The notes beneath the pieces are model-generated. The model did not search any database. It was given only the letters and a program-made list of their open reading frames with translations, and was not told the origin of the DNA. From Thunnus maccoyii (lineage: Eukaryota; Chordata; Actinopteri; Scombriformes; Scombridae), in contig NC_056546.1 in assembly GCF_910596095.1 (NCBI RefSeq), positions 21,852,425 to 21,916,424 of the forward strand: DNA of 64,000 nt, written 5' to 3'. The position numbers were made by a program, and so were the translations under genes. Shown here one piece after another: positions 3,266 to 57,100 of the stretch (the first letter of the stretch is position 1; each line of letters starts with the position of its first letter).

Positions 3266-21780
<18,515 letters not shown>

Positions 21781-27175: not shown

Positions 27176-27205
27176 GTCGGCATTCCGGCCGCTGTGTTGT
27201 TTATG

Positions 27206-30200
27206 ATGGAAACGGGAAACTACGTAGCTAAACTAAACGAGTATGCACAGAGGACGCGGTCGCAGCTGAAATATGAGGACGTCGGATCTGTTGGCCCTGA
27301 TCACATTAAAACGTGAGTTTAATACATTCTCTGGTGGGTCTTAAGACCTGCAAAGTCAAGCGTGATTAAAGGATTTGAACACATTTTGGAGTTTTAACAG
27401 CAGTCTCTTTTTGAACTGGAGGATGTGGTATTTCCATGGGTGTCAATCCGGGATCTTTCCAGTTAAGATGCAAACATAAACGCACATTGAACCTTAAAGC
27501 TCCCATGTGTATATTTGCAAAATTGCAACCGTTTTGTGTGTAGAAAAATAAGAAAATGTGTGCATTCTGCATGGTCCTTCAGTTCATTCAATGTCTCTAG
27601 GAATGTTTACATTCCCAGTGTGATTTTTCCACATAGCAATGCACTTTGTCACCACATTTAAACCACACACGCATTTCTCTTAATATTAAGTTAACATTGT
27701 AGACCTGAAATAATTTGTTGAGATATTCAATTTGAGATTTCCCCCCTCTGGTCTATATATCCCTGCCTCTGCTGAATTATTTGTATCCCTCCATAGTGAT
27801 TCATGCTGCTTCACGCATAGACCATATAACATATATAAAATAAAAAAAAGGCTATTTAATAAAATCTATGTAAAGTGCTGCAGCGTGAGAACATCAGTGC
27901 AAACAATAATAAAGTCAGGAATGGACATTCACTGTCACTACGCGTGAAAACGTGTAACACGGCGTCTGGGCTACGTGATGACGCAGTAAATGGACGGGGG
28001 GGGGGGGGGGGGGGGGGGGTAAATGATGGGCGACACACTATGGATGACCACTCCACAGGACAGCAGAAAAAGAAGACTGAAGTCCGTAATCAAAATAGAC
28101 TGTTTTCTTAGTCTGACAAGTAGGCATTTATTGTAGCCCAGTGGTTCTCAAGTGGGGTCCGGGGAACCTCAGGGGTCCTTGGGGGGGATCCAAGGGGTCC
28201 CCTGCACAAAGATGAATAATTTATTTTCACTTTAAATCCATCCATGTAATTAAAACACCTAAAAGCAAAAATCTTATCAGAAGGGGGACAAAATCTAAAA
28301 ACAAATCAAAAAATTTAAAGTTTGAGAACCACTGTTGTAGCCTATTTATTTTTATGATGACAGCATGTTATGCATGCTGTGATTATTTTCTACTCAATAT
28401 TGACGTTTGCTGCGCATAAAGCTGAATTAAACAGTGACTTGCAAGAATGACATGAAGTGTATTGGCACATCTAGCTGAGTATCCACATTACTGAAAGGAG
28501 CGTTTGGAGATTTAATTCTGGCAGATTTTTTCACAAACCACACCCTGGAGATATTATTGTTTCCTGCATACAGTGTTGGGAAAAAACTGAGGAATATGGA
28601 ATAAATTTGTCCCATCAATGAAAAAGTAAGAACGCCTGCACACTTACTCCAGTCTGATTAAAATTTAATTAGATAGGACAATGTTTCGATCCTACTCAGA
28701 TCATCAATTGATGCTGTTTTTTATAGCCTTGCACCTACATGATGTGCATATTTACTCTCCTTCAACTGATTAACTTGTCCCATGTCATAGCTGCAGTGCC
28801 CTGCTTTGACTCATAGGACAAAATTTACAGTCCAGGAAGCCTTTCTGGGACTGTTTTCATGAGGAAAGTTGGAATTCAACTATAGCTCAGTCACAGTGAA
28901 GGAATGGTTATAGCATTCAGTATCAGTATTGTTATGGAATTTTCCATCTTTAGGGGTTACAAATTGGGTTACACTGGGTCAAGTCTGGGCCTTGAGGTCA
29001 CACTGTAATTCTTAAGCAGGAAGGGGACATTCTCTCCTCTCCTTGAGACTCCAGCTGTCTGTGATGTTTGGGGAAAGCAGAAACCTCTCTCATAGAGGGT
29101 AAATCAGCATTGATTCAATAGAATCAGTAGATTCTATCGACACAGTCAGACATTCAAACCAAATATCTGCTGAAGTTCCATGCAACGTGACCTGAACTGA
29201 CACAGGTAAACTGCAGTTCCTTGTTTAGAAACTAGTGAATCAATTAGACTAATTTTTCATATTGTAGGCTGATCTGCTTGGGTTAAAGACTAAGACTCAG
29301 ACCTCCAAGGGGCAGAACAAAAAGAGACCGCATTCGAGTTGCAGATGACTTCGATGCTCGCTATTTCAGTTCTCCTTGGCCAAGTACTTCAATAAACATT
29401 TTCAGCTTTAAGACATCAAAGGCTTGTGCGCGCTTTTCTCCACTGAGGTGCTGACCATCGCTCAAAATATCCACAACAAGTATCTGTTGATATTTGTAAG
29501 CACAAAGAGGCAGGTGTATACCTTCTGTTGCAACTGTTTAAGGACAGTTCACAATTTTTTGGGTCTGTCTTAAAACAACAGTGAGGTGCCCAAATGAAAA
29601 TTGAAACAGGTTTTTCTTGTCATAATCGTTCCTCCTGTTTATACTGGCCAGTGTTTCCCCTATAGTAGTACAGGTCTGGTGGGCCGCTAGGCCAACAAGA
29701 ACCCCCACCAGACCAAAAGAATATTTTTTGTAATGCCAAAAATAATGCCAAATATCCATTAATTTGGAAATCAATAGCATTGGGGGGGGGGGCTCTGTGC
29801 AGCGCTGCTCTGAAACATGAGTCAACGTCTGTGTTGTTGTCTGTGAAACTCTTGGAAGCGTAGCTCTTTTTAAGGAATAGTACAGGGCATAAGGAGTGTG
29901 CGTAGCAAGTGAGTGGGTGAGTGAGAGACTGGGTGGCAGAAAAGTGACGGTGAATGCGAGCGGAGCAGAGGAAAAGGTTAGCAGTAAGTTGTCAATCTGG
30001 CAGTAAATGTATAGTACAGATATCCACTTGACATGACCACTTCAAAAACGATTTTGAGTATTGACTGTCCTGTTTTTCTTTATAATTTCTTAGATTTACC
30101 CTAAGAGCAGTCCTGAATGGTAAGGCGTATCCTGATGGTGTGGGGAAGAACAAGAAGGAAGCCAAACACAATGCAGCAAAAAATGCTCTAAAAGGCTTGT

Positions 30201-33200
30201 TGGAGGAACCGGTTGACTCTGTAAGATTAGCTTTCTTGACTTACTGCCTGTGTGAATTTTTGTATTTCTGTAATATGTAAAATCCCAATTCACAACACAC
30301 TGTATGTCTTCTTGATGTATATTTGTTATTTTCCTGACAGACAGAAACTGTAGCAGAAGTGTCTGCAGCACCAGTTCATCAGGCAAGTGTCACTACCATC
30401 AACTATATATGTTGGCTCAATGAATATGGCCAGAGGAAAAGGGTGCTGATAAAGGCTGTGGAGTCAACAAGACCAGGGCCTCATGATGCCACGCAGTAAG
30501 TCTTAACAGTGTATCCAAATGTATGTGTAGCTGTTTAGTCACCATTGGAAAATACTTTAAATAAAAGTTTTTATGGTTTTAGATGTTGTAGGTTCATGGT
30601 TGACGATAAGGAGTACCCAGCTGCCTATGGGAAGACAAAGAGGGAAGCTAAGGAGGAAGCAGCCAAGCTTGTATATCATGAGATATGTGGTAGTAAAACT
30701 ACAGATGTGAGTAGTAATACACACTAGTTTGTCTCTATTAAAGGCCAACAAATTAGTAAAAATTCATGGAAAGAATTGAAATTCTTCTCCTTGATTGTAA
30801 TAATATTGTCACAAATGTGCAAGTAGCTTTTCCAAATGTCCCACAGGCCACACTCCAATCATTTCATTGTTATAAAATCATACTTTTTTGTTTTCAAGAC
30901 TGGAGATGAGAAATCAAGCAGCACAACATGTAATCAAAAGGAGGATCTGAATCAAAATGTGTCTGAGATCTGGTGAGCACAAGTTCATTGACAACGTGTT
31001 GTTTCATTTTTGTTTCATTCTTCACCACCGTGAAACATTGCACAAAGTAACATTTTGTTTTTGCTCTGTTTGGTTATTAAAAGGTTTTAATTAGTATCTG
31101 TTTTGTCTTTGTATTACAGTGATAAGATAAAGAACTTGAGCGTGAAGACAGAGGACAAAAGCTTTATAGAGACAAATTTCATCGGAATGGTCAACCACTA
31201 TTGTCAGAAAACAGCTCGCTCCCATACATTCATTGAAGAGAAGAGATGCGGCCCCCCTCATAACCCTCAGTGAGTATGACCAAACCTCTGGGACCTGAAT
31301 AGACACTGCATGATAGATATGAGAGGGAAATCTGAAAATATTTTCTCCCTGCCTACACAGATTTTTCTACAAGTTGGTGATCAACGACAAGGACTACCCT
31401 GTGGGTGAGGGTAAGACTATCAAGGACGCCAAACAAAAAGCATCTCAGCTGGCCTGGTCTGCTCTTCAAGAACAGTCAGACTGGGATAGCAAGGTATTCA
31501 ATATTTTCTGTTGTTTTAATATAATAAAATATAGTTTTAATTAGGGCTGGGCGCTATGACCAAAGTCTCATATCCCAAAATAGGTAATTTCATATCATGA
31601 TAACGATACCTATCCCGATACAGCACATTTTAATTCAATGAATAAATAGTTGGTCTGTGCACCTGGCACCCCTGCAGAGATCCTGCCCTCTACTTGTATT
31701 TTATTATTATTTTGCTGTGTTCAGGACGTTTTTGGGCATCAACCTTTGGGCAGTGGGTGTGTAGCCCTCAGCCAATAACAGCATGCAGGGTGTGAGGTCG
31801 GGGCTCGTCGGGACTCCGCTCTGCTCTCTGTCTGTGTGTCATGGATGTATAAAGAGCTGCAGGTCTGTGTGTCCGCTTGACCGAGGGGGGCTGAGCTACA
31901 CACACGCAGAGCAGAGAGGCAACAGCGGACAGGATGAAGCTCTTCATTCACACCAAATCCAGCAATGCGACACCTTCCCCTCTCTCTCTCTCTCTCTCAC
32001 TGTAGTTAAGCTGGGGAGGAGGGGCCAACTTGAAATGCTGTGTGTTTACAAACACTAACTGACAAATCCTGCATAGCATACCTTTTTAAAAAGAGATTTA
32101 TACATTTCTGGCTACAGTCACACTGTGGTAACAGCAGGTTACCAAGTGAGGTTCTTTTGAACATCTTTTGTTTCAGAAAACATGAAAATGGTTCCCTTTA
32201 AGTAAAAAAAAAAAAAAAATCACATTGATGTTGCACCCCATGCCAGGGAAAATCAATTAATACAAAACATGCTACTATGTAACAGCAAACATTTCCTTTG
32301 TGCTTTCAGGTATCTTTCTTCTTAGCTGATGATGGTGCGCTAGCGAAGCTGCCCACAACACCAAGCACTCAGTAAGGCACTGACCTAGTAGCATAACAGA
32401 TGGTTAAGTTTGATGTTGAGAATATTCTACTAATGTGTCTCATTGTATTCTCTAAGAAAGTCCCGTGATGCAAAATCAGAAAGCTTGCCAGCGACTACAA
32501 GTAACCCAGTTGTTTTCGCCAATTCATCAAACTCTCCCAAGATTCAGGTCTGTTATTTTGTATGTAATCCTTTTATACCGTCATGGTTCCTCTGTTTGTG
32601 ATGCTCTGTCTATTGCAGCTAGTTATATCAAGTTCCTTTAATTTACCTTTTAAGGTAAAACCAGAATTACTCAACTGGTCGTGATTACTGAAATATGACT
32701 TACAGAATGTGAAAGTGACTTAATATATTACCAGAATGTTTTTTAGTAATCCCTGTGAGTTGCACATGTTTTTGGAGAGAGTAAACAAGTCAGCAATAGT
32801 ATTACAAGAGCAAGAGTTTGTCAGTAATTCCTGAGAAATTGCTGAGAAGTCAAGGGGGACTGTATGTATGTATGTTTAAATATGTTTTCCTACTTTCCAT
32901 TACAAAGGATCAAAGTCCTGATGTGAAGCCCAAAAGAAAGTAAGCCATCTTTTGAGACCCACTGTAAAGCTACAGTACATAATTTTTCACATGTTATTGC
33001 TGATTATAATTTTTCTTGTCTTGTTAGAATTGCAGCAATTTTCCAAAATGCCCACAGAAACAGCAAAGAGGTAAAGTAAGCCTGTGGATGATCATGTAAC
33101 TTAACATGATTTTTCATTTGCTTTTGTTAAACTTTTTAATCTTGATATCATGACTTTGTTTTATTCATTAAGGATATAATGGCCAATTCCGATGACAAGA

Positions 33201-35373
33201 ATATAGGAAATAGTCCGAGTGCGAAAACATCAACCCCGTCAGTAATTTCAAGGTATGGAAAATTATAACATTTAATAACATTAGTTGCATGTTTTAAGTA
33301 CTTCTGCAGGCTTTAGTTTGTGTGTTGTCTATTTATACACAACCACAGATGCATTTTCATATTTTCAACTATTTGATTCAACAATACTTTCAACAGGTTT
33401 ACAGCAGAATTTGAGTCCATAGATTGTCTGGGCAAAGGAGCCTTTGGTCGTGTTTTCAAGGCAAAACAGAAACTACTAGGGAAGTATTTTGCAATAAAGA
33501 TTGTCCGCTGCAAAGAGTAAGTCAAGTATTAAATTATGTTTTATTTTTTTAAATGAGGACTGTATAATGTTTTTATTTATTCATTTTCTTAAACTTCTTT
33601 TGATCAGAAAAGCTTTACGAGAGGTGGGGGCATTATCAGACCTCCACCATAGTAACATTGTTCGATACTACACATGTTGGATGGAAGACACAGGATACCA
33701 GTGGGACACTGCAGCTGAGAATTGCAGCACTTCCCAGTAAGTCTCATCCACTTAATAAAATCCTAACTTAACTATATTTATTTACTAAAAATGAAGGTAT
33801 GTCATTTCACTATTTTATTTTTTCTTACTTCCCTAGGTCTACTGGTAATTCACCTGCAAAGTTCCTCTATATTCAGATGGAGTTATGTGACACCAAAACA
33901 CTCAGAGTGTGGATAGATGAGAAGAATACACAGAATGTGAGGAAATCTCTGCGAGACTCCAAGAGAAGAGAAGACAGTCTAACTATTGCACTGCAGATAG
34001 TCAGTGGAGTTGAGTACATTCACTCCAAGATGCTCATCCACAGAGACCTGAAGGTGAGACGATGAAGTAGACAAGATTGTCATTTATTACTACACATCTG
34101 TCATGGAGTTACATGTTTGTGTTTCTTTCCTCTGGTTAGCCTGCCAATATCATGTTTGGGCGCGATGGAGAAGTGAAGATTGGGGACTTTGGTCTGGTCA
34201 CTGCCGAGAATGATGACGATGCTGAAAACCTGCTGGAGAGAACAGTGTACAAAGGAACCCCATCGTACATGGCTCCTGAGCAGGTTAGACCCTCCATTGT
34301 TTACATTTACTTCAGATGCTTCTGTATTATTGAATATTGGTTATCAAAGAAAGCCATTAAAAAGGTACCTGGAGATTTCAACCACTAATGATGCTGTAGG
34401 GCTGAAGTGCCCTTTGTTAATATAATTTTTTTTTTTATAACAGAAGACCAGGAACACTTACGACCGGAAAGTGGACATATTTGCTCTGGGTTTGATATAT
34501 TTTGAACTCCTCTGGAACCTCCCTGCTGACCAACAAAGAAAAGCAGTGAGTTCAGACACACATCATATTACATCAATAATTGTTTACTAATAAATTGCTT
34601 CAAGTTTGTTTCAAAAATAGGTAAAGTTCCAGCCAGTTTATCAGATATTACTTGCATATTTCAACAGAGCATTTTGACTTTTCATAGCAGGAAAAGCACA
34701 AGTGTTTGTAATAACATTAACGTCTAATGTCTTCCATGCTAAAGGCCAATCGGACAGCTTGTTAATAGTATCATGCTAATTACATGTTCTTCCACCCTTT
34801 TATCACTGCTTGAATTCCAGATCTGGGATGGTGCCAGAAACCAGAACTTTCCTCAAGGGTTTTCACACAATTTTCCCCATGAGGTACATCAGCATCTTCT
34901 CAATGCACTTGACACATGAAACAGTATTTTACGTAGGGTGGCAGTCACTTGTGATGGTCACCAACAGGGCAGTAGTGAGGCTGAGGTACAGGAGTTTGCA
35001 CTGTTAGAACAGTTCATCTGTGAAGCCACAAAGGCTGAGGAGCCAAAACAGGACCGTTGATGTTTGCATGTGAATGATAAAAGAAATATCAATTTCAAAC
35101 AATCACAACAGATGGCAGGGGAAAATATTTAGTCTGTTAGGTAATGTAATGTAGACAAGGGCTTCAGAAACACTGACATGACTTATTTATATTACAGAGA
35201 TCTCAATGGCTGTTCTTTTTGTTGTTATGTTGCAGAGACAAATTATAAAGTCAGCGCTGTGTGTGAAGCCAGAAGATCGACCTGAAGCAACTAAATTAAA
35301 GACTGATTTGGAGGAGTACACTCATACATTTATGATGCTAAAAAACACGAGTCGCGACAGTAGGACTGTTTGA
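27206..35373 (+). CDS. EIF2AK2: PKR copy A: dsRNA-activated eIF2-alpha kinase with three dsRBDs
   Basis: PKR binds viral dsRNA, dimerises, autophosphorylates and phosphorylates eIF2-alpha Ser51, shutting down translation. Nineteen exons: 27206-27312, 30094-30220, 30341-30495, 30583-30706, 30899-30972, 31120-31269, 31361-31493, 32310-32371, 32457-32547, 32908-32939, 33028-33070, 33173-33252, 33397-33516, 33608-33736, 33837-34053, 34140-34283, 34444-34545, 34821-34883, 35236-35373. They give 696 residues. dsRBD1 is about 4-72, dsRBD2 about 95-165, dsRBD3 about 212-285, followed by a Ser-rich linker and the kinase (393-690). Key residues: GKGAFGRV loop, K427, alpha-C E438, HRDLK (D546), DFG (D564), activation threonines T583/T588 in RTVYKGT, APE, PEDRP. 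Exon 4 could alternatively start at 30592 (in frame, minus 3 residues). ATG 27203 is directly upstream; 27206 aligns with copy B. There is no Z-alpha domain, so this is not PKZ. Confidence 0.93.
27996..28019. repeat. Poly-G tract (24 G) in PKR-A intron 1
   Basis: An uninterrupted run of 24 G in a GC-rich patch of intron 1. Its length is likely to vary between individuals and to be error-prone in sequencing. It could fold as a G-quadruplex on the transcript strand. Confidence 0.9.
28139..28334. mobile_element. hAT-type MITE with perfect TIR ends and 8-bp TSD
   Basis: It starts CAGTGGTTCTCAA and ends TTTGAGAACCACTG, matching inverted repeats. It is flanked on both sides by the identical octamer ttgtagcc (28131-28138 and 28335-28342). 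An 8-bp target duplication is diagnostic of hAT transposition. About 196 bp, non-coding, inside PKR-A intron 1. Confidence 0.92.
29640..29995 (+). repeat. Dispersed repeat, first of a pair (PKR-A intron 1)
   Basis: It shares long similar stretches, in the same orientation, with 50285-50530. Shared text includes 'agaacccccaccag', 'tctgtgcagcgctg' and 'taagttgtcaatctggcagt'. It contains a short G run. Family unknown; no ORF. Confidence 0.6.
31535..32050. repeat. Dispersed repeat with 'gggctgggcg' start in PKR-A intron 7
   Basis: It begins TTAGGGCTGGGCGCTATGAC and runs into repeats of tatc/gata character, a wording very common in fish introns. It ends near a (CT)n tract at about 31980-31999. 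It sits between exons 31361-31493 and 32310-32371, and lies away from their splice sites. Confidence 0.5.
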
Positions 35374-37300: not shown

Positions 37301-37306
37301 AGTTGT

Positions 37307-37316
37307 TTTCAGTTTC
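37307..37316 (+). promoter_or_regulatory. ISRE-like core upstream of PKR copy B
   Basis: TTTCAGTTTC matches the ISRE/IRF core TTTCNNTTTC. It lies about 190 bp upstream of the PKR-B ATG, a similar place to the full ISRE before copy A. The outer consensus positions are weaker than in A. Confidence 0.5.
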
Positions 37317-37332
37317 GATAGTGTGGACGTGA

Positions 37333-37466
37333 ATGACTTACGGGGAAATCGAGACTTATTGGTATTACTCAGCGGAATGGGAAGAGAGCACAGCAGAGTG
37401 AAGCTGGAAGAGGAAAAGAGAGAACCACTGCGAACTTTGTGCCATTTTTATCACAGTTGTATGTAA
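37333..37466 (+). other. Upstream ORFs in the PKR-B leader
   Basis: Two overlapping uORFs in different frames: ATG 37333 to TGA 37398 (21 codons) and ATG 37377 to TAA 37466 (29 codons). The second ends in an internal ATGTAA, so even a late transcription start leaves a minimal start-stop element at 37461, 36 nt before the main ATG. Transcript extent is unknown. Confidence 0.45.
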
Positions 37467-37501
37467 TTTGAGCTCAAATTCCGACTGATTGGACATATTT
37501 G

Positions 37502-40500
37502 ATGGCGTCTGGAAACTACGTAGCTATTTTACACAACTATGCACAGAAATCAAGCTCAGTGCTGCGATTTGAGGACCTCGGTTCTGTTGGCCCTCCCCAT
37601 GACAGCGTGTGAGTTATGTTATTTTCTAATTACCTTTGGATTTACATTTCCAATGTATTGTGTCGTATTCGTACTCGACTAAAATTGAATAACATTAAAA
37701 AAACAGCAAGTCATTATGGCATAACTTAATGTCAGAAAACGCCTAGAATACCACGAAACTACTTGTAGGTTAGAGACAACCAACTTACTGTTATGACAGT
37801 CTAAGTGTAACCACAAACATTGTTGATTACTGGAGGATATCTATCCACCTCTTTAATTTATACAATGTTCAACTCATCAGGTGTTCATCAGTGTTACATT
37901 ATTGGTTAAGGTATCTCAAAATGTGTTATTTCCGTATCAGCATGATTAGTCTATCATTATTAACACCACAAGCATATCCAAAATGTTTGGAAATATAAAA
38001 GCAATTTGTTAATTCAGTGGATTTTGTAAACCAGTAAAATCCCTCTGTCACAGAATTAACATGTCAAATATTCAAAATAAGGAAGTGTTCAAGTTAAACA
38101 CAGATGCTAACACGTAAAAAAAATCTCAAATATGTAAACAATAAAAGGAATCGTAGTACTGGTAAACTGAAATTATCATTGCAGGAAAATGCAGAATTAC
38201 ATATCCTTCAAATTCATTGGATGATGCAAAGAAAAAGCTGAGCCTGGTGACAGACAGGTTGAACTGGGGAAATAATTCTTACCTTTTCAGATTAAGAAAA
38301 AAAGACAAAGTAGGAAAAGTAAAATTAAACAGAGAGAAAGAAGCTTGTTAACTAAATCTGAGGGTATATCAAAACAAGTGTATCCATGTCACATGTTGCT
38401 CCTTAAACAATTTAAAAGGCCAACTCAATAATTTGTTATTTTATGTGGTGAAACAGACCTCATTACCCTAAGAAATCCCAGCTGGTCAAAGAATATAACA
38501 AAAGGAAGTCTGAGTTTTAGTCTATGGTTGGGGTGTTTAAACTAAATAGGATAAAATCCTTTATTTCACAGTCTGAGTCTAAATGATGTTATATCCAAAG
38601 AAACATATTTAAGAAAATTGGAGAGCTGGATCTTTTGTTAAGATTCTATTTTACAATTCAAAACTGCCCATTAAGTTTTCAGAATTTCCTAAACAAGTAC
38701 TACACTGCTAGAAGTTATTTTACGTGTAACTTTACTCCACATGACTTGTGGAACAACAGAACTATTACAACCAAACAAACTTTGATTTAAAAAAAAAAAA
38801 AAAACAACAACCTCAAAACTGTACTTAAGTAAAGGGTTTGAATAAATGTACTCTGTAACATTTTCTATGATTTATAATCACTATTCAAAAAGTTCATGTA
38901 TTACATCCTAGAGGCTGAATATGGTAGTGTGCAGATTCATGTCATTATATGCACTCCACTACCAACATCATCTCAAATCAATTCATATACATATACACAC
39001 ATACATATATATAAGAAAGTTTTGACTATTCCTCTACAGATTTACCCAGAGGGTAGTCCTTAATGACACAGTCTATCCTGAGGGTGTGGGGAAGACCAAG
39101 AAGGAAGCCAAACAAAATGCAGCTGAAAATGCGCTGAAATCCTTGAACAAACAACAGGATCCAGTTGACTCAGTAAGATTATGGTTTCTTTTTGCTTAAC
39201 TCGAGCATGCTGGTTTGTAGATATATAAAAGTAAAAGACCAATTTTTGGCACATGTGTCCTTGATGTATATTTACTTTTTTCTATTTTCCAGACTGCAGA
39301 TGCAAATTACAACTGTGCATCAGGTCAACAAAAGGAGGATCTAAATCAACATGTTTTGGACATGTGGTGAGTAAATCACACTGGGAATGCATTGTTTAAT
39401 TTTGATGTTTTCTTCAGTTTGTAATGTTATTTGTTTATTACAGTAATAAGACAAGAGGCCTGAGTGTGAACTCTGAAGATAAAAGCTTTCAAGAGACAAA
39501 TTTCATAGGAATTATCAACAACTACTGTCAGAAAACAAACCGCTCCCATACATTCACTGCGAAGGGGAGATCTGGCCCACCTCATAAGCCTCGGTGAGTA
39601 TGGCCAAACCTCTGTGACCTGAGTAGACAGCACAAATACTCTATGCTGTCAATTGATATTCAGTTGTAAACAATATTAAAATCTTAACACAATGATCTTA
39701 ACAATTTCCTCCTTTTCAAAACATCACTCAGATTTTTCTACAACTTGATGATTGACAAAAAGGAATACCCTGTGGGTGAGGGTAAGACTGCCAAGGAAGC
39801 CAAACAAAAGGCAGCTCAGTTGGCCTGGACTGCTCTTCAAGAACAGTCCGACTATGACAGCAAGGTATTTAATTTTTTCTACTCCCGTTATGTTATCAAA
39901 TATAGTTCAGTAGAATAGTTTAACTGCAGATTTTTCCTGATGCCTCTGCCTCAAAATTTACTGCTCACGGGGACCATATTCACCACTGCTTACCTGCTTT
40001 AGCCCTTATCATAAAACATTCAAATAAGGTGTTTTCTTCTCCTCTTTTCTTTTGTCTTTTTGTTCCAGGCAATCCTATTTTGTTTGTTTGTGTTGTGTTT
40101 GTTGTTTTTTGGGGGACTGGAGCCACCATGTTGAGAAAAGACATTATATTAAACATTTTTGTTCTGTGCATTTTAGGTGTCTGTCAAGTCAACGGTGTCC
40201 GAGGATGAGTTTTCAACACCATCATCTACAATGTAAGGCAATTTTTGTCATTAGTAGGAGAGCAGATCATAGAGTTAAATACTAAGAAAGCGATACTCAT
40301 GTCTCTCATTGTATTCCCCCAGGGAATCCCAGGAACCATCATCACAAAGCATGCCAATGAGTACAAGTGACTCAATAATATTCTTCAATTCATCAAGCCC
40401 TTCCAATGCTCAGGTCTGTTCTCTCATAATCATAAAAAATCTGTAATAGTTAAAGCAAAGATCTGTACTCATAAGGGATAATATTTAAACAGTGCAACTC

Positions 40501-46250: not shown

Positions 46251-46254
46251 TATA

Positions 46255-47459
46255 ATTTTAGTATACATAAGTATTTCCATTTTATGCTACTTTGCATTTC
46301 AAGAGGGAAATATTGTACTTTTGTATTAACCTGTATTTGTTTGACAGCTAGTTACTTATATTTTGCATTTTTTTCCTTTTATCGAGTCATTTTAGTTTAT
46401 TTTATTATTAAAAATGGGAGCTTTAGGACTCAATGGTACACATAAATGTCTTTGCATTGAAGTTTTTGATTAAAGATTAAACTGCCAAATACTAACAGGT
46501 AGGGTGAATAAGGGTAATGTGGGACAATTTCAGCAATAGGCACTTCATAGATATATATTTTGATATGAAGCCAATACATCTGCACCCAATACCATTCTGA
46601 AATCCTTGAGTTGTTTTCTAATCATATCAGAAAAGAGAATGCAAATATCACACTCAGAGAAGAAATTGCAAATATAAAAGTGTTCCTTGTGCTAATTGTC
46701 CCAGATTATGTGCTTTTCCTAATGTGGAAATCTGGAGACACTGGGAGGCTGAAAGGTCTAAATCACCTTAATTCATAAAATAAAAACTTCTCCGGTCAGT
46801 AACGCTCAAGTGCATTCCCACATTTGGTCTTTTCAGTAATTACAATGGTTTTGCAGTTACAGATAGTACAGTAATGTATTATATTATATATTAGTTATAA
46901 TATAGTTTGCAACCTACCTAAAAATAAGTTAAAATTAAGCATTATAACACTGAATAACTATTGGTATTACACATTTAATGTACATAAGCATATTTCACCA
47001 ATTTCACAACATATATTACTGCCCCATAATAGTAAAACCAGCTGTCCCACATTTCAACCCACATTTTGGGCAATGAAAAATTGAGTGGAATAAAAAATAT
47101 GAAACATATTTTCATAATATTGTAGCATGTTTTGAGGCATGTACAGTATATATCATAAACACAATCTGATAACAAATGGCAACATTTCTTCATTTATGAC
47201 AGATTTATATCCTTAACATGAAATTACTCTAGATCCTTTATCACTGACCTTTGACTAGACTTCATAGCAAGTACTTCCTGTTGGAAGATTGCTCTGATTT
47301 CAATAACGTGACACCCCAGGTTTAATTTGACAGCACTCCTAATTATTAGCATTTGGCAGAAAAACAGATGCATTTTAGCTTGGGTTTCCCATATTTGTTG
47401 GCAGTTAATTCACCCTAAGTATAGGGCTATATAAGATCAGAGTACTTCTTCCACCACTG
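46255..47459 (-). mobile_element. Reverse copy of the hAT-like element, interrupted
   Basis: The plus strand at 47438-47459 reads GAGTACTTCTTCCACCACTG, the reverse complement of the start of the 25731 element. Around 46265-46345, 'tccattttatgctactttg' and 'aaatattgtacttttgta' match the other end in reverse. About 0.9 kb of unrelated sequence (46,500-47,400) lies between, suggesting a nested insertion. It ends about 210 bp before the PKR-C ATG. Confidence 0.6.
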
Positions 47460-47512
47460 TTCATCAGCGACTCATAGATGTACTTTCCTGTCAGCTACAG
47501 TTGGTGGTGGTA

Positions 47513-47655
47513 ATGCACCTTCTCGTTTGAAACCATCGAGGAGAAGAAGAAGCCACTTCATCACTCCCATAAGCGTACAGCGTCAGCACGGAGGGAAATT
47601 TAAATCTCTTCGATGCAGCACTTTAACTACTGCATGCTACTGTGAAAAGCACGCA
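47513..47655 (+). promoter_or_regulatory. PKR-C promoter/leader segment (duplicated downstream)
   Basis: The sequence immediately before the PKR-C start codon recurs imperfectly at 48214-48347 inside intron 1. Shared text includes 'tctcgtttga', 'gaagaagaagcca', 'atttaaatctctt' and 'aaaagcacgca'. No ISRE matching those of A and B is seen here. Confidence 0.5.
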
Positions 47656-47662
47656 TAGCTTT

Positions 47663-47698
47663 ATGATTCGAGATGGGAAAGAAAAAGTACGTTTCTAA
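47663..47698 (+). other. Overlapping upstream ORF at the PKR-C start
   Basis: ATG 47663 lies 10 nt before the main ATG (47673) in another frame and runs 11 codons to TAA at 47696-47698, overlapping the start of the PKR-C coding region. Ribosomes starting here would miss the main start unless they scan past it. Confidence 0.55.
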
Positions 47699-49766
47699 AC
47701 TAAGCGAGTATGCATGGAGAACACGGTTGGAGGTTAAATATGAGGACGTCGTCTGTGACAGACCAGACCACAATAAAAAGTGAGTTGAAACTATTGTATG
47801 ACAGCACTTATCGGTTGATTGCACATAAAATGACATAAAACAGTTTGTGTTATCACAGGCCGAAATAAGTATCTGTACCTTGGTGTACATAGTTTGACGT
47901 TTGAGTGACATCATAAATTCCCTCTGAATGTGTTGTGCATTATAGAATGGAGCTTGACTGATGCTGCACAGGTGATATTTTTCCCTTTTTCTCGATTAAA
48001 ACGCGTCTCGGACAAACAATTGTGCAAAGTATTGAGCAAAAGCAGGCCGTAATGGCTCATTGGGCCACACTGCATGATAAGCCGTGTTTCCGCTACATGG
48101 TACCGACTCGGTTCAACTGCACTGGCTTTACTTTTTTGAGTTTCGGTTTCCATTACCGGTAGTAACGTATTATAAGGAATGTATGCAGGGATGGCGAGTT
48201 AGACACAACTCGGAAATGCACTTTCTCGTTTGAAAATGTGAAACCATCGCGAAGAAGAAGCCAATCAGCGTGCACTTTCTGCACAGACAATTTAAATCTC
48301 TTAAATACAGTGCTATAACTAGTGCATGTGGCTGTCAAAAGCACGCAACAGGATTAACCCTAACCCTAGGACTGCAGGATTATCATGATACTAACCAAAC
48401 AGAAGATTTTTTAAATGAAAAACACTCTATAGAATTAAGACATGGCAGCCTTGGATATGCGTGGTCCTATAATAAGATAAGACTTAATTGTCCCAGAGGG
48501 AAATTTGCCTTGGACACACAGTGCGGCTGCTGTACAGTATCAAATAATTCAACATTACTACACATCATACATCTCATAAATACCATGATAGAAAGTACAA
48601 TAATTGCGTGAAATTACTCTGGATAAAAACTAAAACTAAATACATACTACTGTGGTCACCCTGCCTGAATGTAATAAATAAGGTAACGATTAATTTGCTG
48701 CTAGTTTTATTTTGTAATGTATCTAGATATATAAGATTTTATAACCAGAACATACACATATTGTTAACTTGCAAACCAAACACAAAATGTGACCCCATCA
48801 CAGTATGTAACAGTAATGACCAAACAGAGCTGAGTACTGGGACACATTTAACCCTATGAACACATCACATCCATATGAGATTGTCTCCATCTAAAACCAT
48901 GTGCATTAATATATATGTATCAATGTGATGCTCATAAATTCATTGTTTACATATATTTTCCCATCCCAGATTCTTCCAGAGGGCCGTGGTCAATGGTGAA
49001 GGCTTTCCCATTGGTGAGGGGAGGAACAAATGGGAAGCCAGGCAGAATGCAGCTAAAAATGCCCTGAGAGTTTTGAGTGATAAGGAAAATCAGGGACTAG
49101 TGGTAAGATTATTATCCGTCTTTGTTAAGATGGTGCATGTTGGATTGTGTGTTCAAATTTGAAAGACAATATACAAAGCATGTTGCATTTATTTCTACTT
49201 TTACAGCTCAATGGTAGTGATGGCCAAAAAGTGTTTCTTCATGTTTCTTTCAGGCAGAAAAGGCAGCAAAAAATCCTACTGTACCAGTTCATTCGAAATG
49301 TGCCACTAAATTAAACTTGGGAAGCAGTGATTATGGTCAGCAGAAGAGGGCCCCTTTACAGCTTGTGGGGTCAACAAGACTGAGACTAAACAATGCTGCT
49401 CCGTAAGTTTCTGCACTGCATCCCTATTCATCTGTAATTGTTTAGCCATCATGTAAAATGTAATTAATCAAAGTTTTAATGGTATTCGATGTTGTAGGTT
49501 AGTGGCTGGTGATAAAGAGCACCCAGCTGCCTCTGGGAAAACAAAGAGGGAAGCTAAGGAGGAAGCAACTGGGCTTGTATATCAGGAGGTATGTGGCAGT
49601 AAAACCAAAGAACTTACATAGATAAGAAGTGAAAGCTAATTTGTCGTCCAATTGCAACATCAGCACGTAGCAGCAGAGCTAAGCCTCCACCATTTTGGTC
49701 TGAAGGCGACTATAACGTCCTGCCTGCAAAGTGCTGTACAAAACTAAAACAAAATTCTTTCTATTT

Positions 49767-49816
<50 letters not shown>

Positions 49817-49868
49817 TGTGTGTGTGTGTGTGTGTGTGTGTATGTATATATAGATATAGATATAGATA

Positions 49869-49899
<31 letters not shown>

Positions 49900-50736
49900 A
49901 TAGTGGTAGAGTGCCTCTACCAAAATAGCCTGTTGTTTTTTTTGATCAATTTTTTATTGTATATCAGTATATCACACCAGTGTAAACTAGGGCTGTTGAC
50001 TGGTTGATTAGTTGGTCGATATGCTCTCGTCCAACTAAGTTCTCATTGGTCGAATAATCTCTGTGTTATTTTCATGAGGAGAAAAGTGCTACATCAACAG
50101 CTTTCCAGGAGTAATCCATTATTTCCTGTGGCAGGAGGGACAGACTAACAAATTACCTGGGTGTATTCAAAACACCCCCGTTGTTTTCAAAACTTTGAAC
50201 TCGTCCAAACTAATGGAGACTGCTGGGTCTAACTGTACTCAACGTTTATTGAATGTACTGAACGTTTACTGAATCTGTGTTTCTCCATAATGACACAACG
50301 AGAACCCCCACCAGGCCAAAAAAAATATTTTTTAATATTTGATATTATCGACAGCGTTTGGGAGTCTCTGTGCAGCGCTGTTCCGGTACGTGAGTCAACC
50401 TCTGTCGTTGCCTGGGAAACCACTGGTCGCGTGGCTCCGTTAAGGAGTATGTTTGCGTAGTGAGCGGGAAAGAGCGAGGGGTAAAGGAGGAAAAGGTCAG
50501 TAGTAAGTTGTCAGTCTGGCAGTAAATGTACAGTACAGACTACAGTGTGTCAGTTAATAAATGCTAAAAAAAGTCACGTCATGTTTTCTCCTCTCTTCCA
50601 CTCCCCCCATAATGTCACATATGTACAATCTTAAACTTTACGAGATCTACTATGGAAAAGGTTACAATTGTGTCATCATAAACAATTAACAGTCATAATA
50701 ACCGAACTCTCCCCCACCCCTTTACCCCAGTGACGA

Positions 50737-50768
<32 letters not shown>

Positions 50769-52837
50769 GAAATTGAATAATAATTAATGTCTGTCACACT
50801 GCATCATCTCCTTAACTAAATTATAAGCCTCCTCCCACATTTTAAATGTCGAGTGCACGATTTCAAGAAGCGAGTTGACCCACTGTTGCCGAGGTAAATC
50901 ACATGGTGGTTGCCACCTCAAAGCTAACATTTTCTTGGCTGCGGTGAGGCCAGCCCATAGAAGGCGTCTCTGTTGCAAAGACAGATTCAGAGAAGGGTCG
51001 TCATTAAGCAGAAGCACTTTTTTTGGGAATTGGGTGGAGCAGATATTGCCCGTTCAGACCATTGCTGAGGAACTTGCATATAAAACTTTGGTCATGTTAA
51101 TAAATTGTTTACCCAAATTAAATTTATCCAAGGTAGTCCAAAGCATCCAGTGATAGAACCGAGCACGGAGAATCAATACTGCTAGCTGAATGGATAATGT
51201 GCAATAGGCGACGCATGTTGTCTGATGCTTGACGAGTCTTAATAAAGCCAGTCTGATCATTATGAATTAATTTTGTGAGATTTACTTTTAGTCGGTTTGC
51301 GAGCACTTTGGCATATAATGTAACATCACTATTCAAAAGAGAAAGGGGTCTATAATTACTGCATTGAGACAGGTCTTTATTTGGTTTTGGAAGTACAGAG
51401 ATTATGGCCATTGAATGCACCCTTATCAATTGCTGCATTAATCATTTCCAGCAGCGGTTTTCCCAATACATCCCAGAAGGCGAGGTATAACTCTGGCGGA
51501 ATTCCATCCCATCCTGGTGACTTACCCTTCTTCATACTAACAAGAGCCATCCTTAACTCTTCTAAGGATATAGGGGCATTGAGCAACTCTGCTTCATCGT
51601 TTGATAGGGAGGACAGATCTAACCCCTGAAAGAAACGGGTACATTTGCCAGGGTCAAGTGGGATTCCAGAGGTCTTGAATTCAGTATTAATGTTGCGGGG
51701 GTTGCTCAAAGTACCAGTAGGAGTTTTTATGACCAATATTTGAGTATTTCTCATTATTTTTCAATCTCAAAGACAGAAGGTGGCTAGGCCTGGCCCCATT
51801 AAAGTAGTATGTCCTTCTTGTCCTATGCATCAAAAACTCTGCCCTGCATCTTAACAGAGAATTCAACTCAGTTCTCGTTATGGTTATTCTTTGTTGTAGC
51901 GCCTCAGAGTATGAGGCCTATTGTTGGGCCTCTAGTTGGGTGAGAGTAGTCTCCAGCTCAGTTATTTTCTTAATTCTGTTTTTGTTTAGATGAGAGGAAT
52001 AAGTGATGGAGGAGTCTCTGATGCAGCCCTTAATCGCATCCCACACAAATCTGGGGTCATCTACAGAGCCTACATTTATATTTATTAAGATATTTAAATT
52101 CTCTCTAAGAAAGAGAAGTATTGAACCGCCACCGCGGTGCTCTGGTGGGCGTATCCTGAAGTGTGAAACGTGCTGCAACAATGCTATGATCAGATAGAGA
52201 GCAGGGTGAAGCCAGTATAAAAAGTATACTGTTTAGATGTGGGATTGACAGCACGGTACAGGTCTGTTAGACCAAGCACAGACAGAAATTTTTGAAAATC
52301 TGTGGATGCACGTGATTGATTGTATGTGAGACGTTGCACTGATTTATCCAGTGTCATGTTCGCAAAGCAATTCATGTATTACTTCTCGTCAAGCCAATTC
52401 CAGCATGGGCAGACATCAAATCACAAATTAACTCCGTAATATCCTGTTTTAGTCCAATTTGGGGAAATGATCAATTTTAACCAGTAAGAGTGGACCAAGG
52501 TGTCCGTCTTTGGTCCGTCTAACTAAAATAGGAGATAATGATGGCAATACATGAAAGATCTTATTTACAATTAGGAGACTACACATGATCACTGCTTGGC
52601 TCTTTGTTCATCGCCAGATATGGCACGTATGTCTAAACGTCTTTTAATGCAATATTAAAATAAATAAATAAATAGATAGATAAATAGCACAGAGCCATTT
52701 TCCCCTAGATCATCTGTGGTCCACTTCAAAGTACCTCTGATACCGATGTGACTATGTACACTTGGTAGGCTCCTGACAATTAAAACAAAACAAAACAAAA
52801 CAAAACAAACAAAAAAAAAAAATATATATATATTTAA

Positions 52838-52883
<46 letters not shown>

Positions 52884-55800
52884 ATGATTATTATTATTTT
52901 TCTTTTTTTAATGTTTTGTCTTTTATTTACGGCAGGTTTAGATACTTTTGTAGTAAATTTGTGTAAGGTATGTCTTGTCTTATAATTAGGAAAGAATAAA
53001 TACAAATGGGCACAAAGTGGATAAAATTAGGGATGTCACAAGAATTAATACATAGATATCAAATCAATACCAGCATTTAGAAAATGATACTAATACCAGC
53101 CTTTTTAGTTATCAGTAGTATCGAATTTACTCTATAACTCAGTGTTGTTATTCTAATATAGAGTGAGTGTGTTTGTTTAAAAGCTGAAATATTTAAAGTT
53201 TTAGTCATACTTACAAGATTGCAAACCAAATTGAGAGCACATGATCACAGTTGTATTTATTGTTACAACATGACATTTCATACAGTTCCTCTGATTTTAA
53301 TATTTTTGGGCTGCTTTGATTTGTACTTGAAGGCTACAGGCCAATATTTAATTTGTAATGCAGCCTGTATGCTTAAATAATGAAACACATAAAGTTTCTG
53401 TTCAATTTCTAATGTTTATAAAAAGTTTTTAAATACAGGAGTGTGTTCTGAATGGGATTTCTGGTTTTGCCATGGTATCAAATCAGGTATTGAGGGTAGT
53501 GGTACTTAAGTGGTAATTCTAGTATGGTGACATCATACATATACTATAAGTGTCATACAATTTACTGATGACTTGTTTTGAGAATTTTTCTTTTGCGCTT
53601 CTGATTATGCTGTGAGATTCACCGATTTTGAGTGAGTAAGATGTGATGAATTTGAATGAATGATGGTGTTTTCAGTCCAAAATGGCAGCAGTGCTACAGC
53701 AGCACCATCCAGTGGCGTTTGTCAAAGAAGCACCTGAGTTTCATCTCATGCTTAAGTGAAACTACTGAGTTTAGTAGTAATACACGCGAGTTTCTTCTGG
53801 CTTAATGGATGGTCTAGAACATTGCAGCTCAGCTGGCCTGGTCTGCTCTCCAAAAACAGTCAGATTGGGACAACAAGGTATTGGATATTTTCTGTTGTTT
53901 TTAACATATCACCTTAGAAGTTTGTCAGTGTGCTCATTGCACACTTTTTCTAAAGCTTGAAGAGGGTTATCAGTTTTTTTGCTGTAGAGACCTATACTCA
54001 TAACTGCTGAAACCAAAATTCCTTCTATAAAATATGCAAACTAAGTTATTATTCTTTCTTTTTCTGAAAACTCAATCAATTACTCAAAAAATTACTATGA
54101 AAAGATGATACACTATAGCAGTTAAAGACGTTGTGCTTTCAGGTACCTTTCGGGTCAGCTTTGTCCGATGATGGTGCACCAGCCAGGCTGTCCACATCAC
54201 GAAACACACCGTAAGTCACTGACTGATGGTACGGTCTGATATGTGACTGTTTTTATTAATGTCACTCATTGTGTTCTTCAAGGGAGTCCATTGATGCAAA
54301 ATCAAAAAGTGTGCCATCAACTACAAGTGACCTAGATGTTTTCATTGATTCATCAGAGGATCAGGTCTGTTAATGTCTTTCTAATTTTCTATCATTGGAT
54401 ACTGAAAGTAAGCACCCACCCTCCGATACTCAGCATCTAATCAAATCAAGTCTCCCAAGAACTCTGTCAAGTCAAATATAAACATTTCAGTAAACTTTGG
54501 GAAATCCCTTGATCTGTAACTCTGTGAGTTTTTGAGAATTTTTCATGCAATGGGACTGATTGTTTAGAAAAAAGACATTTTCATTTTTCTATCAATGGTT
54601 AAACACTTTCTTTCTTCAATGTGTAGAGCAATGTTTGTTGGTTCCTAAAAAATAGTGAATATTACTGAAATTTAATTGGCCTTATTTTCCATTTTTGTCT
54701 CCTATTACAAAATCAAATTTCTGATGTGAAGCCCAAAAGCAGGTAAGTTACCTTTTAGGCCCACTGTGAACCTACAATACATAGTGTTTGACCTGACATT
54801 ATTGCCCATTATCATTTTTCTTGTCATGTTAGAACTGCAGCAAATATCCAAAAGGCCAGTCAAAACAGCAGTGAGGTAAATTAGCCTTCTGGAGAGTTTA
54901 ATCATTTCAATCATGTAGTTGTTTGTTCTACAGTGTGAGCCCTGTCATAATTTCTTTGGTTCAATTAGGATGCAATGATTCCTGGAGAAAAGAATATGGA
55001 AAACAGTTCTGGTGACAAAACATCAATCCAGTCAGAGATCATCAGGTACGGAAAAGTAAAACATTTAAGTGCAATATTGGCATGTATTTTCTGTGGCATT
55101 TAGTTTGTCTGATGTCTATTTCAAAACAACTGTTGTACAATAAAAAAGACTCTCATCTTTTCTCTCAACAGTAAGTTTACAGCAGAATTTGACTCCATAG
55201 AGTGCCTTGGCAAAGGAGCCTTTGGTCATGTTTTCAAGGCAAAAAAAAAATTGCCGGAGAGAGATTATGCTATAAAGATCGTACCCTACAAAGAGTGAGT
55301 GAAGTATCTGATCATGTTTCATATTTTGAATAGGTATTTCATAGAATAATGAATCAGTTACAGATGCAATAAAAGACAAGATTTATTTAAAGAGTCCTTT
55401 TCTTATTAGAAAAGCTGTGCGAGAGGTGCGGGCATTGTCAGACCTCCATCACGACAACATTGTTAGATACTACACATGTTGGATGGAGGATTCATCATAC
55501 CAGTGGGACAGCACAGATGACAGTTACAGCACTTCCCTGTACGTCTCATCCTCTTTCTAAAGTCTTAACTTAACTGAAGGTGTGTAATTTCACCATTTGT
55601 CTTCTCCTACCTTCCTAGGTCTACTGGTAATTCACCTGCAAAGTTCCTCTATATTCAGATGGAGCTGTGCAACACCAAAACACTCAGAGTGTGGATAGAT
55701 GAGAGGAATACACAGAATGTGCGAGACTCCAAGAGAAGAAAAGACAGTCTAACTATTGCAACACAGATAGTCAGTGGAGTTGAGTACATTCACTCCAATA

Positions 55801-57007
55801 AACTCATCCACAGAGACCTGAAGGTGAGGCAAAGTAGACAAGGTTATCATTTATTACTACACATCTGTAATGGACTTACATGTTACATGATGTTTCTTTC
55901 CTCTGGTTAGCCTGCCAACATCATGTTTGGGCAAGATAAAAAAGTGAAGATTGGAGACTTTGGTCTGGTCACTGGTGAGAATGATGACGACGCTGAAAAC
56001 CCAATTGACAGAACAGCTTACAAAGGAACCCCATCGTACATGGCTCCTGAGCAGGTTAGATTGTCTAAACTGACAAACTTTAGATTCTAATGCAGTTTTG
56101 TTTTTAAGAGTTGTTTGAAGTAACACACAGAGACTTTTTTTGAGAATAACTGGTTATGTTTAATATATCAGAGTCATGCCTCGTGATTTTTGTTAATACT
56201 GTCGTCTTGTGTTATGACAGAAAAGTGAGCAGACTTACGATCGAAAGGTTGATGTATTTCCTATTGGACTGATATTCTTCGAACTGCTTTGGAGAATCGG
56301 CACTGTTCATGAAAGAGAAAAGGTGAGGTGTTCAGTCACAATCCAAAATCATGCATAGTGTGTCATTATCAATAGTTGATAACCTGATATGTTTTTTTTA
56401 TTAAGTTCATGTCAAAGGCACCAGACATGAATCTCAGATATCTCAAAATTAAGTTCAACAAAATGTTATTGTGTAACTTATCAGGTGTTTCAGGCCAATT
56501 ACATGTTACCTTCTTCTTTTATCATTGTATTATTTCCAGGTTTGGGGCGACGCCAGAAGACAGAAACTTCCTCAAGGGTTTTCATGCAATTTTCCGGAAG
56601 AGGTACATCAACATTTTGTCAAAGTAGTGTACTTGCAATATGAATCAGCTTTCCCATAGAGTTCCAGTTTTCTCACAATGTTCACCAACAGGGCAGGTAG
56701 GAGGTTGACAACCTGGTGTTTGCATTGATTAGGAGCCAAGACAGGACTGTTGATTTGTGCATATAAATAATGAAAAATATCCAACAGGACAGATTGCTAG
56801 TCCAAAAATGTTCTGTAGCATTTTAGTGAAGTATAGATCTTAGTAGCTGTTCTTTTTGTTATGTTGCAGTGCATCATAATCAAGCCAATGCTGTGTGAGA
56901 ATCCAGAGGGCCGACCCGAAGCAAGTAAAGTGAAGGCAGACCTGGAAGAGATCACTCTCAGACTCAACAAAAAAAGAATTATGCGTCAGGGCAGCTGGAC
57001 TGTCTGA
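47673..57007 (+). CDS. EIF2AK2: PKR copy C: intact kinase, eroded dsRNA-binding region
   Basis: Third PKR. Exons: 47673-47779, 48970-49102, 49254-49402, 49498-49588, 54143-54210, 54283-54364, 54732-54742, 54833-54875, 54969-55045, 55172-55294, 55410-55538, 55619-55823, 55911-56054, 56221-56322, 56540-56602, 56870-57007 (554 residues). dsRBD1 (4-72) looks sound. The dsRBD2 exons are diverged, their usual donor is lost and a TAG lies at 49618; a strong donor at 49588 (GAG|GTATGT) rescues phase 0. dsRBD3 exons are deleted. Skipping 49254-49588 also stays in frame (474 residues). The kinase has K289, HRDLK (D404), DFG (D422), RTAYKGT threonines 441/446 and APE. Oddities: PEGRP replaces PEDRP, and FPIG replaces FALG. 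It is probably expressed given the clean kinase frame; a pseudogene in progress is the alternative. Confidence 0.78.
48139..48152 (+). promoter_or_regulatory. ISRE-like site in PKR-C intron 1
   Basis: AGTTTCGGTTTCCA matches AGTTTCNNTTTC exactly and misses only the last C of the consensus. It sits in a stretch ('gtttccgctacatggtaccgactcgg') resembling a dispersed fish repeat, and lies about 60-75 bp before a second copy of the PKR-C leader sequence (48214-48347). Confidence 0.5.
48214..48347 (+). repeat. Second copy of PKR-C leader/promoter sequence in intron 1
   Basis: Imperfect repeat of 47513-47655 in the same orientation. Similarity stops at 'aaaagcacgca', just short of where the start codon would be; no exon 1 coding sequence follows. 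It may be a relic of another PKR promoter or part of a repeat that supplied both. Confidence 0.55.
49770..49901. repeat. Compound (TA)n/(TG)n microsatellite
   Basis: TA repeat (about 49770-49812), TG repeat (about 49815-49841), a TATAGA stretch, then TG again (about 49868-49895). It lies just after PKR-C exon 4 and marks the left side of the sequence that replaced the third dsRBD exons. Confidence 0.95.
50285..50530 (+). repeat. Dispersed repeat, second of a pair (PKR-C intron)
   Basis: Same orientation as and similar to 29640-29995, from 'gagaacccccaccaggcc' through 'taagttgtcagtctggcagt'. The two lie in non-equivalent introns of copies A and C, so they are separate insertions rather than part of the gene duplication. 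Confidence 0.6.
50738..50768. repeat. Poly-C then poly-A tract
   Basis: Twenty-one C followed by ten A at the 3' edge of the reversed LINE relic. Confidence 0.9.
50770..52420 (-). mobile_element. Decayed L1-type LINE ORF2 fragment
   Basis: Minus-strand pieces appear in the right order: an endonuclease end ([20 protein letters not shown], 52375-52190), a spacer region (52181-51918), the reverse-transcriptase start ([17 protein letters not shown], about 51530), the RT motif with [10 protein letters not shown] and YRPLSLLN (51438-51130), and a C-terminal piece with [17 protein letters not shown] (51017-50784). Frameshifts and stops break it, and much of the RT, including the YxDD region, is deleted, so it is non-functional. 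It lies where the PKR-C third-dsRBD exons should be. Confidence 0.85.
52783..52880. repeat. (AAAAC)n, (TA)n and (GT)n simple repeats
   Basis: AAAAC repeats, an A run, a short TA run and then about 19 GT units (52843-52880). Intronic to PKR-C. Confidence 0.95.
52881..53823. other. Unassigned sequence in PKR-C intron
   Basis: AT-rich sequence without an exon I can support. It replaces the place where, by comparison with copy A, the exons for the start of dsRBD3 should be. Confidence 0.5.
53824..53877 (+). pseudogene. Remnant of the dsRBD3 exon in PKR-C
   Basis: The last 54 bp of the exon equivalent to 31361-31493 in A survive: [18 protein letters not shown] followed by the donor GTATTG. The upstream part is gone. 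A fused sequence ATTGCAG could act as an acceptor but would enter in the wrong phase after the preceding exon, so the remnant is probably skipped. Confidence 0.75.
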
Positions 57008-57100
57008 TGATAAAAATCCTCAAATCATGGTCATCTATTTCAGATCCTATCTCATACGTGCACTTTGAAGATGGTCTGTTTTAATATCTGACAAGGAGTA

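Follow-up and report, generated by a model that had tools for sequence, protein, structure and literature searches.

Three tandem PKR genes with unequal sets of double-stranded RNA-binding domains in Thunnus maccoyii

A 64,000-nucleotide stretch of contig NC_056546.1 of Thunnus maccoyii, referred to here as the window, contained three head-to-tail genes for PKR (EIF2AK2). The genes, called A, B and C, were all on the + strand, and their hand-built spliced models encoded three, two and one recognizable double-stranded RNA-binding domains (dsRBDs) respectively. The locus is very likely the fish EIF2AK2 (PKR) gene expanded to three copies, from an ancestor that had three dsRBDs and 19 exons, with losses in B and C. 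An earlier note, made from the sequence alone, had proposed three tandem copies with the dsRBD sets 1+2+3, 1+3 and 1 plus a worn 2, as well as graded dsRBD content beside conserved kinases. Both proposals were borne out by open spliced models, by Pfam dsrm counts of three, two and one with a Pkinase match in each copy, and by kinase ratios of nonsynonymous to synonymous divergence (dN/dS) of 0.33-0.41.

The models were assembled exon by exon, and an AG before and a GT after every internal exon were demanded. All three predicted frames were open up to one terminal stop, and every internal boundary was GT/AG. Copy A had 19 exons (27203-35373) and encoded 697 amino acids with exon 4 starting at 30583 (694 amino acids with the start at 30592), copy B had 17 exons (37502-45031; 603 amino acids), and copy C had 14 exons (47673-57007; 536 amino acids). 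Homologous exons (E) carry the same number in the features below, which come from the spliced models unless another source is given.

Copy A
27203-30220, + strand: E1 (27203-27312) and E2 (30094-30220), dsRBD1; isolated-domain Pfam dsrm score 71.4 bits
30341-30706, + strand: E3 (30341-30495) and E4 (30583 or 30592 to 30706), dsRBD2; Pfam dsrm 34.3 bits
30899-31493, + strand: E5 (linker), E6 (31120-31269) and E7 (31361-31493), dsRBD3; Pfam dsrm 52.0 bits
32310-33252, + strand: five linker exons, E8-E12, the same number as in TnPKR1 and DrPKR (PMC2291453)
33397-35373, + strand: kinase domain, seven exons, E13-E19, stop at 35373; Pfam Pkinase 8.3e-46
Copy B
37502-39172, + strand: E1 (37502-37608) and E2 (39040-39172), dsRBD1; Pfam dsrm 62.8 bits
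39173-39292, + strand: 120-nt intron standing where A has its dsRBD2 exons; its body shows homology to intron 2 of A
39293-39864, + strand: E5, E6 (39444-39593) and E7 (39732-39864), dsRBD3; Pfam dsrm 48.2 bits
40177-41654, + strand: linker exons E8, E9, duplicated E8' and E9', and E12; E10 and E11 absent from the model
41772-45031, + strand: kinase domain, E13-E19; Pfam Pkinase 6.3e-46
Copy C
47673-49102, + strand: E1 (47673-47779) and E2 (48970-49102), dsRBD1; Pfam dsrm 57.0 bits
49254-49588, + strand: E3 (49254-49402) and E4 with an alternate donor (49498-49588), degenerate dsRBD2 in open frame; no Pfam match
49646-53726, no strand: insert of ~4.1 kb with simple repeats and a reverse-transcriptase piece, between two matches to the end of A E4 and start of A intron 4
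53824-53877, + strand: 54-nt remnant of E7 (last helix of dsRBD3); from tblastn and the A-C alignment
54143-55045, + strand: linker exons E8, E9 and E12; E10/E11 sequence present at 54704-54875, E10 acceptor AG absent
55172-57007, + strand: kinase domain, E13-E19; Pfam Pkinase 5.9e-46

Exon 4 of A most likely begins at 30583, 9 nt upstream of 30592. The upstream AG added three residues and raised the score of the isolated dsRBD2 from 33.2 to 34.3 bits, with the same domain counts, and the start at 30592 was dropped for this reason. The shorter form of A was the one used for the full-protein Pfam searches, tblastn, dN/dS, the dsRBD tree and the counts of private changes.

Assignment of the three genes to PKR was based on both ends of the proteins. 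At the N terminus, Pfam found full-length dsrm stretches above the cut-off in all three (three in A, two in B, one in C), and residues 4-167 of A, which span dsRBD1 and dsRBD2, aligned with the corresponding pair of human PKR (1qu6, E=1.3e-21). For isolated domains the dsrm cut-off was 23 bits and the maximum E-value 10, though HMMER filters discard most matches above E 0.1; within these limits the isolated dsRBD2 of C had no Pfam match. In a small tree of ten short sequences the fish dsRBD2 grouped with human dsRBD2 (support 83), a mere hint that the domain specific to fish may be dsRBD3. At the C terminus, each protein had a Ser/Thr kinase domain of the eIF2-alpha-kinase type (Pkinase, 5.9e-46 to 8.3e-46), and catalytic and activation-loop motifs were present in all three kinases. 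The exon plan of the models, with two exons per dsRBD and seven kinase exons, was that described for fish PKR (PMC2291453). Signs of the related families were also sought. Ahead of the kinases, where PERK (EIF2AK3) would have its lumenal sensor, Pfam gave dsRNA-binding families only and one weak match below the cut-off. Z-alpha, the mark of PKZ, had no match in the A, B and C proteins, nor at E 0.1 on the + strand of 45032-47671 and 57008-64000. No PKZ was found in the cluster within the stretches searched; all three genes carry dsRBDs.

Homologous exons of A, B and C had identical phases. The dsRBD2 pair (E3 and E4) and the block made up of the linker and dsRBD3 (E5-E7) each run from phase 0 to phase 0, so that either block could be lost without a frameshift, as had been proposed in the earlier note.

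The only gap between E2 of B and its next exon was 39173-39292. The body of this intron was homologous to intron 2 of A (score 47, reached by 0 of 1000 shuffles), while for introns 3 and 4 of A the score was reached by 507 and 647 of 1000 shuffles. Homology to the end of A intron 4 and to A E5 began 20 nt ahead of B E5, which places the deletion joint within ~20 nt upstream of that exon. These alignments indicate that B lost the dsRBD2 exon pair when a deletion brought intron 2 up against exon 5. The presence of dsRBD2 in TnPKR1 and zebrafish PKR marks B as the copy that lost the pair, and not A as one that gained it. An unseen dsRBD2 exon at 39.2-39.3 kb, which the note had named as a threat to the 1+3 set of B, was ruled out, since no such exon fits in a 120-nt intron whose body matches A intron 2.

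Further features of B were noted. Its linker exons E8 and E9 were duplicated in place (40177-41324; 201 of 255 aligned bases identical, 0 of 500 shuffles). Synonymous divergence between A and B in dsRBD3 (31120-31493 and 39444-39864; 9 of 42.5 sites) was below that in the kinase (73.7 of 178; Fisher nominal p=0.02 on rounded counts) and not clearly lower than that in dsRBD1 (p=0.07). The low synonymous divergence over E6-E7 may reflect gene conversion.

Copy C differed from A at both splice sites of exon 4. In C the upstream acceptor AG of A is replaced by CG, which would leave the following AG, 9 nt downstream, as the acceptor; the donor of A was not conserved, and an in-phase GTATGT donor followed 49588. 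With open frame and splice signals kept, the dsRBD2 exons of C may be translated. The description of this domain as decayed was therefore right as to its altered splice sites and missing Pfam match and too strong as to its exons, which are degenerate yet open and readable.

The claim that dsRBD3 was destroyed in C was upheld. Beside the insert, only the 54-nt E7 remnant remained, in an alignment of A 31440-31517 to C 53824-53901 (90%) that extended beyond the E7 donor (E7 of A ends at 31493). Neither tblastn and single-exon blastn nor the A-C alignment of the window revealed E5, E6 or any further part of E7 in C. The insert carried an RVT_1 match (1.4e-9) at 51127-51441 on the - strand; a second frame that was searched gave nothing. 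Both of its flanks, 49561-49645 and 53727-53808, matched the end of A E4 and the start of intron 4 (A 30655-30733 and 30656-30744), with 0 of 500 shuffles for the second, the one flank that was put to a shuffle control. Plain insertion of a retrotransposon is too simple a cause for the loss of dsRBD3, as both flanks match one segment of A, and local duplication and deletion were probably involved too.

The insert also contained (AT)n/(GT)n repeats and a repeat common to intron 1 of A (29693-30020 to 50296-50539, in three pieces). At the start of C, the stretch before the start codon (47509-47655) was repeated in the first intron (48212-48347), with 107 of 128 aligned bases identical.

The kinases of all three copies showed constraint, with dN/dS of 0.41 (0.29-0.57) for A-B, 0.33 (0.22-0.47) for A-C and 0.37 (0.25-0.55) for B-C. 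For dsRBD1 the values were 0.46 (0.25-0.84), 0.28 (0.12-0.58) and 0.48 (0.22-1.01) in the same order, for dsRBD2 0.58 (0.29-1.2; A-C), and for dsRBD3 0.64 (0.28-1.55; A-B). Since the intervals of the dsRBDs and the kinase overlap, dN/dS alone gives no sign of a faster sensor.

Private changes were then counted against outgroups; the p-values are nominal and per comparison, and tests with a copy as outgroup presuppose a root that has 52% support. For A against C, dsRBD1 gave 2:17 with B as outgroup (p=0.0007) and 3:7 with the human outgroup (p=0.34), and dsRBD2 gave 1:10, 1:8 and 0:9 (p=0.012, 0.039 and 0.004), so that C exceeded A in four of five outgroup comparisons (p<0.05), human dsRBD1 being the exception. 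Counts for the kinase were 18:24, 13:10 and 7:11, none of the three significant. For A against B, the kinase gave 18:50 with C as outgroup (p=0.00013), 8:9 with human PKR and 11:14 with PERK; dsRBD1 gave 8:5 and dsRBD3 5:1, 5:3 and 3:2, with an excess for B in none of these four. By these counts C shows a faster sensor beside a steady kinase, a pattern that is absent from B. The suggestion of diversifying sensing beside a retained effector is thus partly supported: it fits C (dsRBD excess in four of five comparisons, kinase in none of three), but not B (dsRBDs in none of four, kinase in one of three).

Outside the gene models, a tblastn search of the window with the A, B and C proteins (E up to 0.01) gave no match beyond the three genes, C's E7 remnant included. 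Single-exon blastn gave as extra matches the E10/E11 sequence in C, a relic of exon 18 and one weak match at 18397-18435, along with many matches with E > 0.01 that were taken as chance. The weak match, to A E10 with its flanks (77% over 39 bases, E=0.002), lies far upstream of the cluster and is possibly chance too. The window was also searched for Rfam families (at the gathering threshold) and for tRNAs, with no matches.

46014-46081, + strand: in the B-C interval, relic of exon 18 of a PKR gene; matched by blastn to A E18 (76%, 68 bases, E=1.5e-8), 0 of 500 shuffles
27045-27054, + strand: core of an interferon-stimulated response element (ISRE), GAAANNGAAA, 158 nt before the first ATG of A
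37307-37316, - strand: ISRE core, GAAANNGAAA, 195 nt before the ATG of B

The relic was closest to E18 of A, and its donor GT was gone; it is probably a trace of a fourth copy or of uneven exchange. Exact matches to the ISRE core numbered 10 across the window, where 4.65 were expected.

The upstream neighbours were a striatin-like first exon on the - strand (Pfam, 1.2e-13) and a G-patch gene on the + strand (Pfam, 4.7e-8). The human order around EIF2AK2 is STRN-HEATR5B-GPATCH11-EIF2AK2, and the neighbours of the cluster are consistent with it as far as striatin and G-patch go.

In a kinase search of the 782 Mb genome, with 130 of 341 first-look candidates scored, the 11 best of 86 matches were inside the window and the best elsewhere was 40% identical. 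No further close PKR copy was found elsewhere among the 130 of 341 candidates scored; matches outside the window had identities of 26-54%, with the upper values coming from short stretches. A search for Z-alpha (six of six candidates scored) gave two matches, in one 580-amino-acid frame on another contig (G000:C10:15889784-15890446), a few kb from dsRBD matches, which looks like ADAR1. No PKZ was seen in the genome by this search.

Some observations weigh against the reading of an EIF2AK2 locus expanded from a three-dsRBD ancestor. The best match of each kinase in PDB was PERK, with PKR next (44-45% identity to PERK, 42-43% to human PKR), so the kinase alone cannot name the family. The root among A, B and C has the 52% support given above, and the order of losses is taken from the three dsRBDs of TnPKR1 and DrPKR. 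The linker of C was ambiguous at E10/E11. HEATR5B was weakly indicated among the neighbours: two of four candidate HEAT-repeat-like exons on the - strand were matched (HEAT 0.00026, HEATR5 0.0026), both below the cut-off. Finally, an exact ISRE core was not found within 600 nt upstream of C, where a one-mismatch site at -78 is at chance level. Cores before A and B and none before C suggest different interferon control of C.

Other explanations of the unequal dsRBD sets were considered. It is possible, if unlikely, that they are neutral wear on spare copies, with A doing the work and C heading towards a pseudogene whose kinase is still unbroken. Such wear would account for the altered exon 4 splice sites and unmatched dsRBD2 of C, for the loss of its dsRBD3 by rearrangement, for the faster change of its remaining dsRBDs in four of five comparisons, for a dsRBD2 dN/dS interval of 0.29-1.2, and for the absence of an exact upstream ISRE core; the exon 18 relic suggests that another copy has already been lost. 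However, the kinase of C was stop-free in frame, with dN/dS of 0.33 against A, and was no faster than that of A, and in 2000 simulated runs a neutral kinase at 0.23 changes per site stayed stop-free in 0.1%. At 0.1 and 0.05 changes per site the stop-free runs rose to 3.75% and 14.7%, which leaves room for a recent release of C from selection. C as a plain pseudogene is unsupported by its frame, splice sites and constraint.

Selection of the three genes as a graded series of sensors, in which the number of dsRBDs tunes the activating dsRNAs and the kinase output stays the same, is doubtful. It would fit intact kinases with three, two and one dsRBDs in one array, but the overlap in dN/dS between dsRBDs and kinase argues against it, as do the lack of acceleration in the dsRBDs of B and the acceleration of its kinase in one of three comparisons. 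Adaptive diversification and neutral loss are indistinguishable from these data. It is improbable that C has come under regulation of its own and can dispense with dsRNA binding by two domains; if it had, C might act as a weak, constitutive partner that joins A or B via the kinase domain and sets a threshold for the interferon-induced copies. Skipping of the dsRBD2 exons in the mRNA of A, which would leave A and B with the same working set, is very improbable. E3 and E4 are removable in frame and dsRBD2 is the weakest domain of A (34.3 bits) and of TnPKR1 (E-value 0.013), but their GT/AG sites are intact, the cloned TnPKR1 cDNA includes dsRBD2 (PMC2291453), and dsRBD2 of A has few private changes and groups with its human counterpart.

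The favored reading is still expansion of EIF2AK2 followed by separate losses. In that history a three-dsRBD, 19-exon ancestor, of the form still seen in A, would have been duplicated; B would have had the dsRBD2 exon pair deleted and intron 2 joined to exon 5, C would have lost dsRBD3 and left dsRBD2 to degenerate during a rearrangement with the ~4.1-kb insert, and all three copies would have retained the eIF2-alpha-kinase-type domain. In PKR, dsRNA binding unites two molecules, which phosphorylate each other and then eIF2-alpha. For A, B and C, expression, RNA binding, kinase activity and any division of labour are inferred. By analogy with the family, each copy should bind dsRNA by its N terminus, pair, autophosphorylate and halt translation, and fewer dsRBDs should give weaker binding or binding that depends on longer RNA. 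A would offer the most extensive surface for dsRNA, and B a surface of two domains as in a typical PKR. C, with one good domain, would be a weaker binder, require denser or longer dsRNA, or depend on kinase pairing. Human PKR requires about 30-33 bp of dsRNA for activation (PMC6599070, PMC3185532). The cluster forms a natural series of three, two and one dsRBDs on related kinases in one genome, which could be used to ask what number of dsRBDs a PKR requires. B illustrates one route by which the domain count may change, with a frame-neutral exon block deleted whole and one junction in the splice-acceptor tract.

Human PKR is a single gene. Its dsRBD1 and dsRBD2 align with those of A and its kinase is similar to the fish kinases at the identity given above, and it differs in having two dsRBDs. 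That most PKRs have two, as the earlier note had it, holds for mammals and amphibians but not for fish, whose PKRs possess one, two or three (PMC2291453), as restated in a review (PMC7137213). Tandem fish PKR or PKR/PKZ genes are mentioned in reviews (PMC7137213, PMC7582293), and the 2008 paper calls every tandem PKR/PKZ array that it covers head-to-tail (PMC2291453).

The closest known system is that of Tetraodon nigroviridis (Rothenburg et al. 2008, PMC2291453), whose three tandem PKRs carry three dsRBDs, one dsRBD and part of a dsRBD. As published, PKR1-PKR2-PKR3 are likewise head-to-tail genes that keep the kinase throughout, with fewer dsRBDs in the later copies, and TnPKR1 resembles A in its three dsRBDs, 19 exons, exon plan and weak dsRBD2, which is its weakest domain. 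The later copies differ: one and a partial dsRBD in Tetraodon, dsRBD1+3 in B and dsRBD1 plus a degenerate dsRBD2 in C. Kinase identity is 49% between TnPKR1 and TnPKR2 and 64% between A and B; the copy-by-copy likeness is drawn from the published description. A also follows the published plan of 19 exons, with two per dsRBD, one between dsRBD2 and dsRBD3, five for the linker and seven for the kinase (PMC2291453). Zebrafish PKR shares the 19 exons, the five linker exons and the single exon linking dsRBD2 and dsRBD3, and its kinase exons one, five and six have the same lengths as those of A, namely 120, 102 and 63 nt (PMC2291453); its neighbour, however, is PKZ with Z-alpha domains, whereas all three genes of the Thunnus maccoyii cluster have dsRBDs. 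Tandem PKR arrays are also described for Xenopus tropicalis (PKR1-3) and Takifugu rubripes (PKR1-2), whose genes are reported to have two dsRBDs each or a set that is not fully resolved (PMC2291453). The Xenopus array arose independently, and both Takifugu genes are nested with those of Tetraodon (PMC2291453). No PKR copy with dsRBD1+3, like B, is described in the titles and abstract openings among the matches listed. The phenomenon in general was already on record in 2008, and the Thunnus maccoyii cluster is a further example of the arrangement described in pufferfish rather than a new system; what is added here is the deletion joint of B, the exon 4 splice changes of C and the exon 18 relic.

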